A DNA stretch of 64,000 nt from Branchiostoma floridae (lineage: Eukaryota; Chordata; Leptocardii; Amphioxiformes; Branchiostomatidae), in assembly GCF_000003815.2 (NCBI RefSeq), contig NC_049989.1, positions 19,353,165 to 19,417,164 on the forward strand. Reading direction: 5' to 3'. The notes under the pieces are model-generated. The model did no database searches. It worked only from the letters and a program-made list of their open reading frames with translations, and was not told the origin of the DNA. Shown here one piece after another: positions 4,901 through 10,900 of this stretch. Each line of letters opens with the position of its first letter. Position 1 is the first letter of the stretch. The position numbers and the translations under genes were made by a program.

Positions 4901-7900
4901 AAGTGAAGAGAATCGCACCAGATCGATTTCCTTCACTGCGTGAACAGTCTCACCCCGTTCGATTCTCTGCAAATCGCTTACCTGTTCTTACCTGGGATGA
5001 GAACTAATTGCGCGACATATTTTTTGGCGAAGGTAAGGAAATTACGTTGTCCCATCTTCTTAAAGCATTCAGCTCTTGGCAGGAAGACTCGGCTTTGGAG
5101 ACGACATATTTCGCTTCGTATCATAAGGGGGAGGGGGGCGTTTAGTCTGTGTGTCTGTTGTCAAAATTTATACTTGATGAGACAATTGAAGAAGCTACAA
5201 TTATGTACGGAAAGGTGTCATATATGAAATTTGAACTATTGTTAGTATCTTAGATATACAATCCAAAACAGTAAAGACACACTAAATTAAAGTTGCATAG
5301 ACTAAGCTTGTACTTGTAGTACTTTAGTACTATAAATTATGGAAGCCTTTGATAGCCCCGCTCCCCTAAAAAAAGGAGGGGGGAAGGGGACATGACTTGA
5401 AATGTCTGACGATTTTCAAAATTATATGTAGTTGCTTGTCAATAAGTACGTGCTACTAGTGTCTGGCACATTTACTTCACAATCATCTTATTATTTCATT
5501 AACGTTATTTATTTATTTATTCCTTTAGTGCCAGTGATCATTATATTGATTATTATTCACAGTCTGCTATCCGAGGGACGAAGCTAGGTACTCATTTTCA
5601 TCTGAGTGAAGTGGGGAACGTTGTATTAGTGCCTTACCCAAGGGCACGCGATTGATGACACAGCAGGGTTTGAACATGGGACCTCTTGGGCCTAAGCCCA
5701 ACGTGCTGCCAATTACGCCACGCGATCTCACAATATTGATCTTATATTCCTCCTAGGCCGTGTTCCACTACGAGACGTGTAAGCTGGACGAGCCGCCGAC
5801 AGTTCTGGACGACAGCCGGTCCCAGGAGAAACCCATGGAGCTCATCTTCGGCAAGAAGTTCAAACTGGAGATTTGGGAGAAATGTCTGATGAGCATGCGG
5901 GTGGGCGAGGTGGCAGAGTTCGTGTGTGAGCCAAGGGTAAGTCAACAGATTAGCAAGAAAGATAGTGTTGTTGTTTCAAATTGCAAGTGAAAGTGCTGAT
6001 TGGGCTAGTGTATGACCTACTAGTACCCGACTTGCCCAATAGTAAGACAAGTAAGACTTTTCCATTGAATGAGGTTTTGATTGTAACTTTTCATAGCATC
6101 AAGCAATGGTCAACATAGAAAAATAGAGGCAAAAATAAGAATTCCATTGCTCGAATTGAAAATGTATATATAAGCGACATTTGAATTTTGGGCAAGTGAA
6201 AGGTTCGTTTGCGCAAGTAAATTTTAGATGTGCTTGCCCAATGGGAAAAGTGCATTTTAGAAAACTTGTCCAACTCTGCTACTATTACACTATGACGGCC
6301 TTTCCGTACCAGGTGGTTGCTCAGTACCCCATCGTGGCCAAGAGTCTGCGGGACATCCGACAGGGGAAGCAGGAGCACCCTCGCCACTGCTGCGGCATGG
6401 CGTCCGACAACAGCCTGGGGTACGCAGACTTGGACGAGCTGGTTAGACAACCCCAGCCCCTGGCTTTCATCATAGAGCTGCTCAAGGTTGGCTGTTTACT
6501 GTGTATCATATCATAGCCAGAATATCAAAAGCTTTCATTTCATGTTGAAGTTAATTCTTTAACGGTTTATTTAAGAATTCAAACAACATTGTTTCAAACG
6601 TTTCAAGCATGGCAGCCAAAGTGGCTGAATTTCTCCAGCAGAACTTGTAGTTTTGATATTTTGAGTTCTGGAGATGCAATGGGCTTGATATTTAAGTGGT
6701 TGATATCTTTTGCAGCAGAGAGTAAGGCCCAATCTATACACAGTTTTTGCCGATATCTGTGGATATGTCGGGAGGGATCTGGAACGTTGGCCACGGGACA
6801 CCAGTGGCGCTTGCAGTCATAAACAGCTATATGGCCTAATGAGCCCGCGTTATATGCTACTAAGCCCTCCAGAAGTCGGGACACATCTACACACGCACGG
6901 AAGCTGTCGGGGACCCCTGCTAAGCTATCGTATGAATGCTCCAGACCTTTCGGGAGAAATTCTGCCGATATCTTTATGGCGATATTGCAGTTCCATCTAG
7001 ACGCTGAAAAAAAGCTGTCGGCGAGAGGTTGTCGGCTCGCCGATATCGGGAAAAACCGTGTCTAGATTTTGCCCAAGTACTGTAAGTTGTGTCCTCCTAA
7101 GGGCATTTTTGAATCTGCAGGGGCCAATTTATTTTCAGACTTAGATATGTCTGTTTGTTTGTTTAGGTGGAAAAGAAGGGAGAGTACAGCCAGGAGGCGT
7201 GGCAGATGACACCAGAGGAGAAAAAGGCAGCTCTACCTCGGCTGCAGGAGGAAGGTTTGTTTGTTTGTTTTTTGCTTGTTTGTCCTTTCTCATGTGGTTG
7301 TTCAGGCATGTCCTTGCCTGGTATGGCCTAATTTTTTTTTGAGGGGGGGGGGGGAGTGTTATGAAGTCTTTCACTAAAGGTGGACTCTCACTGCATTTGC
7401 AGCACCAGTGCGGCACTGCGGGGTTCGTAGATGAGTCAACGAATTTCAGAAATGAAGAACAAATTTTCTGCCGTTTTCTGTATTTTGTTGTCTTATAAGT
7501 CATACTTTTACGTATTACGCAATATGTAGATTATTTAAAATCACGAAAGTAACAAAGCAGTGCCGCAGTGAATGAACCCTGCAGTGCCACACCGGTGCCC
7601 CAAGTACAATGAGATGCCACCTTAAATCATTATATTTATTATCTTTTTACAACAAAAACTCTGTGAGTTCGTATATACTTGTTTTAAAAAGAGGGAATAG
7701 GCAAACAATAGTTTTAGTAATAGCATAGCTCTAGATAGTTTTATCCAATTGTTTGATTGTAGCACTACCTATTAATAATAGTATATAGTCTTTAGTATCC
7801 CATGCAATACTATTGAATCACTGCATTTAGCCCATGTGGGCAGGAACATGCAAATAAAGATCTCTATGATCTTTCTTTTTTCCCCAGGGAACAACCTGTA

Positions 7901-10900
7901 CAGATTGAAACAGTTCCACCAAGCTGCTGACTAGTACATTTTTTTTAAGTTGTACAATCTTACACTAAGTCGTTTCTTCAAAATTTTTTTTCCACAGGGA
8001 ACAACCTGTACAGATTGAAACAGTTCCACCAGGCTGCTGACAAGTACATTTTTTTGGTGTTGTACAGTCTTACACTAGCAAGTATACAAAAGTAACGGGT
8101 TCCGCACTGGTGTTCCAGTGCTGAATCAATGGGTCGAATCGGCCTCAGCACTGGTTTTCCAGTGCTGAAGAAACGTCAGCACTGGTTTTCCAGTGCTGAA
8201 CGGCCTTGTTGCAGTGCTGAAGCTCCCTCAGCACTGGAATTCCAGTGCTGAACTTTTCCGAGCACTGGTTTTCCAGTGCTGAACTTTTCCGAGCACTGGT
8301 TTTCCAGTGCTGAACTGCCGTCAGCACTCGGGTACCAGTGCTGAACTCGCGTCGGAGAGGCGGCGAGCCAGTTCAAAGGTCATTCGGCACTGGTTACCCA
8401 GTGCTGAAACCGCCGTCAGCACTGGAACCGAGTGCTGATATACAAAAGTAACGGGTTCCGCACTGGATTTTCCAGTGCTCGGGAACTTTTCAGCACTGGA
8501 AAACCAGTGCTGAAAAAACTTCAGCTCTGGGCTTCCAGTGCTGACGATTATAAAGCACTGGAACGTTCCAGTGCTGAACGTAATATTCATTCGTAGCATG
8601 CGGTCCGTACGGCTGAGTTATTTCCTTTCGACTTGTTACCTTGTTTGTGTGCTATGAATGTGGTCCCCTGCCAAAGAGAAAACGGCGCTGATAAAATGGC
8701 AAAACAATATAAGTCTCAATCCTTTATGTTTCACCTGGCAGTTGTAGTGTAACATTTCCATGTATCTCCGTGTATGTAGTTGTAGTCTGATAGTTCCATG
8801 TATTCACGAAATGATTTGTTCATTTTGAATTTTTACCGGGGTGCCATTTAGGTAATTTTTTTCTCAGTCTGTATATATTTTTTTTCTGATGCACTACGTA
8901 TAAATATGTTTTGTTCCTTAGATTAGAGATTTTGCGTTTTTAGTAGTTCTTTTCATCGACTGTATACATTTTTCAAACAATTGAATAAAGAAAGAGATAC
9001 AGTTCAGGCACAACTTGTACCATTACGTGACAAAAGTTTGGAACAAATAATATAACGTCATTTGCTTGGTAAGTTGCTCTTGTTTTATTATGTCCGAAGG
9101 CATAGCGGCGCCGATAAAAAGGCAATACGACAAGCTTCAAACCTTTATGTTTCAACTTACAGTTGTAGTCTGACATTTCCATGCATCTTCGTATTTCACG
9201 AAATAATTTGTTGATTTGGAATGTTTACCGCGGTGCCATTTATGTCCTTTTAAATTTTTGTCTTTTGTACTTTTTTTTCTGATGTACTACGCAGAAATCT
9301 TAGTTAGATTAGAGATTTTGACCGTATAATACAGCTGTCGATTTACATTTTGTACCAGAATGTACCCTAGCTATGTATCAATCGCTACCCATTGATGTAC
9401 TACCACTACTACGTATATATTTCTGCTAGTGATTGGACCCAAATTTTGTAGAGAACTGTATCAATTTACCGTTGCCGTTTTGTCCCGACTTTATTACGTT
9501 TTTAGTAGTTCTTTTCACCAACTTCATCAGGCTCCCTTTATACATTTTTCAAACAATTGAATAATTGTATAGGGAAAGAAGAGATATAGTTTAGGCACAT
9601 TACGTGAAAAAAAGTTTGGTACAAATAATATAACGTCACTTGAAGTTGCTCTTGTTGTTTTATTGTGTGCGTGCGTGTGTTTGGCAGTGTGTGTGTGTTT
9701 GGCAGTTTCTTTGGTAGGCTCAGTCGTCCGTGCAGCTCACGGTTTATAGTCAACACTACAAGTGCGGTTCCTCTTGTTGTAACTAAATTGGGACCTTCCA
9801 ATGACCTTTTGGCCAAGAAAATTAAATGTTAGATGATGGCGTTACATGTGAGGTGAATGAGTAATGGACCATGAATACGGCTCGAGCTGCGGTAGATATC
9901 TATGTATATAACGTTACCACAGTTGTTTTGACAAGTTACTAACGTGATTGAAGACGTTTTAGACAGGTTATTTTCATTATAATTGTAAACAGCAGCTCAT
10001 GCCGCCTTGAGTCGTGTCGCTAGAGTCGGCGGCTTCAGCACTCGGTTTCCAGTGCGGAATATTTGTCAGCACTGGATTTCCAGAGCTGAAACGTCCTCAG
10101 CACTGGATTTCCAGTGCTGAAACGTCCTCAGCACTGGATTTCCAGAGCTGAAACGTCCTCAGCACTGGATTTCCAGTGCTGAAACGTCCTCAGCACTGGA
10201 TTTCTAGAGCTGAAACGTCCTCAGCACTGGATTTCCAATGCTGAAACGTCCTCAGCACTGGATTTCCAGAGCTGAAACGTCCTCAGCACTGGATTTCCAG
10301 TGCTGACAGGAGGACATTCAGTGCTGAAGCTGCCTCAGCACTGGATTTCCAGTGCTGACGGCGGCTCAGCACTGGACTTCCAGTGCTGACGACCACTTCA
10401 GCACTGGTGTTCCAGTGCTGACAGAGGAGACCGTTACTTTTGTATATTTGCCTTACACTAAGTCTTTTCTTCATATTTTTTCCCCAGGGAACAACCTGTA
10501 CAGATTGAAACATTTCCACCAAGCTGCTGACTAGTACATTTTTTTAAGTTGTACAATCTTACACTAAGTTGTTTCTTCACAATTTTTGTCCCCAGGGAAT
10601 AACCTGTACAGATTGAAACAGTTCCACCAAGCTGCCGACAAGTACGCGGAGGCGCTGGGCTGCATCGAGCAGCTGCTGATCCGTGAGAAGCCCGGAGACG
10701 AGGAGTGGGTCGGTCTGGACTCCCGGAAAGTCCCGCTCCTCCTGAACTACTCCCAGTGTAAACTGATCCTCGGGGATTACTACCCTGTTATAGAACACAC
10801 CACAGCTGTCATCAACAGAGATGAGGGTATGTTCAACCTTAGGCCTAGGGAAAAAAATGTTGTGTTTCCTGTTTCCCTACCTACCCTAGACTTTTTTGGG

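Follow-up and report, generated by a model that had tools for sequence, protein, structure and literature searches.

Palindrome arrays near both ends of a probably non-autonomous amphioxus transposon family with 9-bp target site duplications

FB/NOF, of the Foldback group of Drosophila, has tandem modules near both ends and a variable non-coding middle. Tetris, another member of that group, shares this layout with the Branchiostoma floridae family described here, as well as duplications of 8-10 bp and, as far as the excerpted account goes, a helper transposase that has not been found (PMC4079207). The ends of Foldback elements are long inverted repeats, whereas the strict terminal inverted repeat (TIR) of the amphioxus family is 21 bp long; this foldback hallmark, in its strict sense, is absent. 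Tm1, a Mutator/Foldback family of root-knot nematodes, likewise has mostly 9-bp target duplications without a consensus (duplications of 8-10 bp flank 45 of its 53 elements), composite ends with a variable number of a short motif, and MITE-like copies. It differs in that its modules of ~14 bp lie inside the inverted repeats, as against 24-bp palindromes here, and in that one of its groups codes for a putative transposase, of which none was found here (excerpt of PMC3169594). The target duplications of Mutator/MULE elements are 8-11 bp long, typically 9, a range that takes in the 9-bp duplication of the amphioxus family, and the Mutator-related Rehavkus elements resemble it in their 9-bp duplication, with TIRs of 26-400 bp and a minisatellite before the 3' TIR; they differ in encoding a PHD-finger transposase and, in the passages concerned, come from arthropods and annelids (PMC6446971). 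The amphioxus arrays, unlike that of Rehavkus, lie at both ends and are palindromic, and no transposase was seen. The target duplication of Galileo is 7 bp, shorter than the 9 bp here, and VANDAL elements are Mutator-like. Repeated subterminal motifs are common to Galileo and the amphioxus family, and in Galileo they have been tested and are multiple THAP sites for the transposase; Galileo differs in belonging to the P superfamily and in its long TIRs (excerpt of PMC3688188). In the Arabidopsis VANDAL/VANC system, too, a short motif is arrayed in non-coding DNA, where a protein that the element encodes binds it; that protein is an anti-silencing factor, the motifs are not called palindromes in the sections of the report drawn on here, and the host is a plant (PMC10398659).

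Duplication length and architecture, taken by themselves, plausibly place the amphioxus family with the Mutator/foldback elements. Five amphioxus MITEs of B. floridae, named LanceletTn, were reportedly described by Osborne et al. in 2006. The title of that paper stands in the reference list of PMC5803294, and a LanceletTn element is mentioned in passing in PMC5802833 (both sources in part). In the titles and abstracts searched there was no description of the palindrome design; the Repbase and Dfam consensus sequences lay outside this comparison, and the family may stand in Repbase under some name or be identical with one of the five LanceletTn MITEs. The remark of the initial annotation that no named family has this layout is, then, half right: as far as checked, the palindrome-array design is new, but the general layout, a 9-bp duplication with repeated subterminal modules, is of the already known foldback/Mutator type.

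The element that led to the family occupies positions 8078-10451 (2374 bp) of the window, by which is meant the whole 64,000-nucleotide stretch of B. floridae DNA analysed. Its 21-bp TIRs, GCAAGTATACAAAAGTAACGG at 8078-8098 on the plus strand and GCAAATATACAAAAGTAACGG at 10431-10451 on the minus strand, are identical at 20 of 21 positions, and the perfect 9-bp target site duplication CTTACACTA, read from the sequence, lies at 8069-8077 on the left and at 10452-10460 on the right (both plus strand); boundaries, TIRs and duplication are just as first annotated. The left array (8101-8577, plus strand) holds 13 full palindromes of the 24-bp type and the right array (10035-10421, plus strand) holds 12, according to a detector that accepts a 10+0-7+10 layout with at most 5 mismatches in 20. 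The 14 and 13 hairpins counted originally are reached by adding to each side one half-unit recognised by reading (at ~8209-8220 and ~10317-10327). Their arms had been given as TCAGCACTGG and CCAGTGCTGA, and exact TCAGCACTGG-4-CCAGTGCTGA palindromes make up 10 of the 25 full units, the others being inexact. That these palindromes are not due to chance follows from the enrichment of CAGCACTGG, with 34 matches in the window, 33 of them within the element, against 0.37 expected, and from the genome-wide pattern, with 826 forward matches as against none for its reversed counterpart. Few wide gaps interrupt the arrays: one of 63 and one of 52 bp on the left, one of 52 bp on the right. Beyond the 21-bp TIRs, the listed pairs of left and right array segments show 73-81% complementarity over 55-79 bp, mainly because the modules are themselves palindromic, each unit being its own reverse complement. 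An identical direct copy of the TIR-proximal 28 bp, absent from the earlier description, lies within the left array at 8439-8466 (plus strand). The arm TCAGCACTGG shares TCAGCAC with the vertebrate RE1/REST site, in its left half, possibly by chance. Between the arrays the middle (8578-10034, no strand assigned) lacks a long open reading frame and carries an internal duplication that pairs 8711-8771 with 9132-9192 and 8803-8859 with 9195-9251, among others. Stop-to-stop frames that overlap the element reach 98 aa at most, and no transposase gene lies there.

The genome searched for relatives comprises 513 Mb in 431 contigs, with long contigs C1 to C19 (17-35 Mb where sampled). The 826 forward matches of the palindrome pattern and the 826 reverse ones are the same places among the matches listed, since both strands match. 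The TIR core was found at 108 and 101 places (controls 1 and 1), and exact 23-mers starting with the TIR at 58 places for the left end and 67 for the right (controls 0); a 21-mer search of the TIR with up to 3 mismatches gave 373 places (control 33), which should include internal TIR copies. Copies were taken as paired when both ends had at most 2 mismatches in a 16-bp core. Of 59 sampled places 48 were paired copies and 11 were not (L005 and L006 count as one), and with the window element these form the set of 49 analysed below; outside it stand L001-L004, which overlap, L043, seven related fragment places, and eight copies paired later. An exact 9-bp target duplication flanks 34 of the 49, six have one mismatch and nine have two or more; an exact duplication of 5, 6, 7, 8, 10, 11 or 12 bp occurs in none of the 49, and none of 2352 cross-paired flanks matches at 9 bp. 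The target sequences of the paired copies have no strong consensus. Identification as a transposable element is in this way strongly supported: the single copy first described has 48 companions with both TIRs, 33 of them with exact 9-bp duplications of their own, and the refutation proposed at the outset, the lack of any second such copy, does not hold. On sequence grounds the family is best explained as a MITE-like, non-autonomous TIR DNA transposon that moved by cut-and-paste.

Some of the places outside the regular set are repeats of another kind. L043 and L089-L095 are eight left-end fragments with a common left flank, (T/A)ATTGACAA, and downstream DNA that is largely 95-99% identical, two of them lacking an inner stretch. 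They were rejected as independent insertions, the common flank pointing to a piece of the element's end that was carried along as a different repeat multiplied. The short copies L069 and L075 have stretches 96% identical over 2.1 kb including their flanks, so that the surrounding DNA is itself repeated. L062 and L063, on the short contig C323, are derivatives of 77 and 141 bp that have kept both TIRs and one to three palindromes; the same contig bears two further right ends.

The anatomy of the paired copies is regular at the ends and variable in between. In 44 of the 49 the two arrays are at least 200 bp apart, and in these the left array has 2-16 units (median 13) and the right 4-13 (median 6), the outer values mixing the sides because L015 and L042 were read the other way round. 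The distance from the left tip to the first unit is 23 bp in 40 of the 44, and that from the last unit to the right tip is 30 bp in 42. The length of the middle in these copies ranges from 255 to 9131 bp. One type of middle is common to the window element, L025, L028, L023, L007 and others; a second, with a repeat of ~139 bp, is found in L035, L024, L010 and others. The remaining five copies are 77, 141, 290, 360 and 969 bp long. At the level of sequence the copies establish a family whose 21-bp tips are conserved, whose target duplications are strictly 9 bp long and whose two palindrome arrays keep a fixed distance from the tips.

The reading that we favor, at a probability of about 0.56, is that this non-autonomous family is served in trans by a DDE transposase, most plausibly Mutator-like, with the palindromes as putative sites for a dimeric protein in end recognition. 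The transposase would cut at the TIRs, and a dimeric DNA-binding protein, either an accessory factor from an autonomous relative or the DNA-binding domain of the transposase itself, would bind each palindrome with one subunit per 10-bp arm. The avidity and specificity with which ends are recognised and paired would come from the many sites (typically 12-16 on the left and 5-12 on the right), and the middle of the element would be dispensable filler. The loop is 4 nt long in 754 of 891 units; such a fixed spacer suits a dimer with two half-sites, and equally a tetraloop. The THAP sites of Galileo, in another superfamily, are a tested precedent for such a mechanism, and the VANC-bound motif arrays of VANDALs and the piggyBac palindrome are further precedents. 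In piggyBac a palindrome is bound by two cysteine-rich domains of the transposase dimer, and in piggyBat an extra subterminal binding site restricts transposition (excerpt of PMC11707139); by analogy with the latter, the arrays could instead inhibit transposition. The suggestion that dense hairpins serve as binding sites for a transposase, or for another protein, gains indirect backing from the identity of the arms, their lower divergence and the fixed tip distances; a binding protein itself was not found.

The helper that this reading calls for was sought by domain. The genome has 40 places with PF10551 (MULE), 47 with PF20700 (Mutator) and three with PF12762 (Merlin type). Some PF20700 domains are full-length, in open frames of 600-750 aa; Mutator-type domains lie, for instance, at C14:19343122, C2:21253981 and C10:11450533 of the assembly (G000), the best with an E-value of 1.7e-70. 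Proteins joining OTU and MULE domains, of 964 and 935 aa, are present at L065 and L067, and an open frame of 1169 aa at L088 runs off the sampled stretch. A 2019 survey reported that it could not detect MULE transposases in B. floridae (PMC6446971). The Mutator-type open frames of the present genome are candidate helpers. The domain places were compared by coordinates with 135 listed exact ends, that is, the 67 and 58 above and 10 further ones from the 21-mer search, these 10 coming from among the matches listed, on contigs up to 14. No domain place, of 90 in all for MULE, Mutator and Merlin, comes within 10 kb of any listed exact end. The nearest, at C10:23203462, is 10.6 kb from such an end and on its outer side, the copy itself being paired and extending in the opposite direction (L080); all others are more than 20 kb distant, seven of them on contigs that have no listed end. 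The family TIR was not found at four of the 40 PF10551 places or in the flanking pieces of three of the 47 PF20700 places; the remaining 80 of these 87 places were compared by coordinates only. The best TIR-like matches at the MULE loci differ at 6 or 7 of 21 positions, and the sampled stretches of these loci have no TIRs with an 8-10 bp duplication, duplications at L066 having been checked only around the assumed gene position. The helper may have diverged TIRs.

Nor did the copies examined include the longer relative, encoding a transposase, that the initial annotation had proposed looking for. The three longest (9863, 7773 and 4198 bp) all have family ends and exact duplications, and were rejected as autonomous since insertions appear to make up the additional length: the one in L007 carries an 828-aa reverse-transcriptase frame (RVT_1), L045 has frames that by eye are retrotransposon-like, and the 8.8-kb insert of L005/L006 gave no convincing Pfam match in nine frames (best E 0.07 and 0.1). 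This last copy (C7:7614400-7625400, 9863 bp, perfect duplication) has an insert that starts GGCGACGCC and sits in a poly-T of an internal repeat; parts of it recur in L043. In two sets of stretches around ends that had been left unpaired (11 and 20, of 1-4 kb each), judged by eye and by frame length, no DNA-transposase-like frames were noticed; eight of the 20 in the second set proved to be paired, the partner having at most 2 mismatches in the core.

Mobilisation by a transposase outside Mutator/MULE, from some other superfamily, perhaps an undescribed one, whose duplications are 9 bp long, is possible though doubtful. It would accommodate both the distance of more than 10 kb between every MULE or Mutator domain and the listed exact ends and the absence of the TIR from the MULE/Mutator loci sampled. 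Against it, a 9-bp duplication together with composite subterminal repeats is a Mutator/foldback combination in the excerpted literature (PMC3169594, PMC4079207, PMC6446971), and the one other type searched for, Merlin, is sparse: no IS1595-like transposase is linked to the family's ends, the nearest of the three PF12762 places is 336 kb from a listed exact end, and the other two are on contig C245, which has no listed end.

A second alternative grants the transposon and takes away the function: the arrays would be minisatellite-like expansions in a MITE, carried along through slippage and gene conversion and playing no part in transposition. Tetris is instructive here, its foldback repeats having seeded satellites according to the excerpt at hand (PMC4079207). 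In the window's right array a run of near-identical repeats with the same 31-bp spacing and linker indicates recent, local tandem expansion, and its 12 units compare with mostly 5-9 elsewhere (11 in two copies). Unit number varies throughout; the copies of 77-360 bp have one to seven, and two of these copies are flanked by an exact duplication. Passive expansion does not, however, readily account for arrays whose first and last units keep fixed distances from the tips in the proportions given above, nor for the contrast between arms and the DNA around them. Between units of one element, among the units with a 4-nt loop in the nine of 49 elements for which values are given, arm identity is 0.88-0.98, as against 0.23-0.47 for linkers and 0.36-0.84 for loops. 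Detection by likeness to a consensus favors high values for the arms, a leaning to be set against the scarcity of wide gaps in the window's arrays. If the arrays arose by duplication, linkers (and loops) would have drifted, the linkers to near-random, while arms stayed as they were.

The same contrast between copies is modest once misalignment is controlled. An alignment-based version (p 3e-9) was set aside as probably inflated, sliding between identical arms raising the divergence of linkers. Over ungapped blocks with homologous linkers, divergence in the left array is 0.0124 for arms, 0.0190 for loops and 0.0293 for linkers, with p = 0.004 for arms against linkers (0.047 at non-CpG positions) and p = 0.12 for arms against loops, the last of which sits well with passive arrays. 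With L049 as the reference the values are 0.0138, 0.0234 and 0.0260 and the corresponding p values 0.025, 0.036 and 0.015. In a reference-based count arm divergence is about half that of linkers with three of four references; with L049 it is 0.037 for arms against 0.044 for linkers, and loops are lower still (0.028). Arm divergence below that of linkers counts against the passive alternative, which we regard as unlikely.

The spacing of the units invites a more elaborate proposal. Centre-to-centre distances cluster at 31-32.5, 42, 44, 52 and 63 bp, and of nine periods tried coherence is highest near 10.5 bp. For six modal spacings helical phasing has p = 0.004; the strictest set, three spacings none of which is a sum or half-unit of others, gives no significant coherence (p = 0.17; 0.04 when the phase is required as well). 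Right-array centres are only weakly coherent (0.59). Helical phasing of the palindromes is no more than suggestive. From it one might construct an undescribed lineage whose transpososome would be built on two helically phased arrays, with dimer-bound 10-4-10 sites about three turns apart and the TIR serving for cleavage only. We consider this quite unlikely.

It is less probable again that the palindromes are kept because they fold, as hairpins or cruciforms functional in small RNA production, replication stalling or hairpin recognition. The folds predicted for both arrays as single strands are very stable (z -17.0 and -18.0), as this reading would have it; but any palindrome array must fold, and the strength of folding does not separate the readings. 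The predominance of the 4-nt loop is equally what a hairpin would show. The pattern of change is more telling: the 751 units that have a 4-nt loop yield 78 distinct arm pairs, and these show 2 compensatory changes against 2.6 expected from shuffles, with 105 one-sided changes that break a pair, 25 G-U changes and 1 non-pairing double change. Since covariation is absent, selection for folding gains no support, and the arm changes fit recognition as duplex sequence better than folding. The predicted structures also include long stems that join different units, and the arrays have no match in Rfam at gathering scores. The structured RNA envisaged in the initial annotation is accordingly left unsupported, a stable fold being expected of any palindrome array.

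The window element lies within a gene. Two truncated exon duplicates of the host gene stand upstream of it at 7888-7927 and 7998-8037 (span 7888-8037, plus strand) and two exon copies downstream at 10488-10527 and 10596-10635 (span 10488-10635, plus strand); the last runs on into an exon, 10598-10828, that matches AH receptor-interacting protein (AIP) in a PDB search (4aif, E 6e-20), although Pfam gave no match for it at 0.01. Within 7888-10635 this AIP-like gene thus has tandem copies of one exon start together with its tract resembling a 3' splice site, and the repeated starts break off after ~50 bp. The element would have inserted in one unit of this tandem exon duplication, its right array expanding thereafter. 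The exon repeats start at 7888, 7998, 10488 and 10596, so neighboring spacings are 110 and 108 bp; the 2490 bp from 7998 to 10488, less 2383 for the element and one duplication, leaves 107, and the excision arithmetic offered at the outset is borne out. CTTACACTA is present in each host repeat unit (7959, 8069, 10452 and 10558), which makes the neighboring units paralogous empty sites. That same recurrence could make the flanking 9-mers simply two host repeat units and the boundaries accidental, a reading refuted by the sister copies, 33 of which have the same boundaries with exact 9-bp duplications of different sequence, and at odds with the 107-bp remainder beside spacings of 110 and 108.

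It is a common assumption that subterminal repeat arrays serve transposases as docking sites, but such arrays are seldom regular enough for tests. In this amphioxus family dozens of copies reveal the site, its spacing, its number and its distance from the tip, which makes binding, phasing and the requirement for the arrays in cis directly testable.
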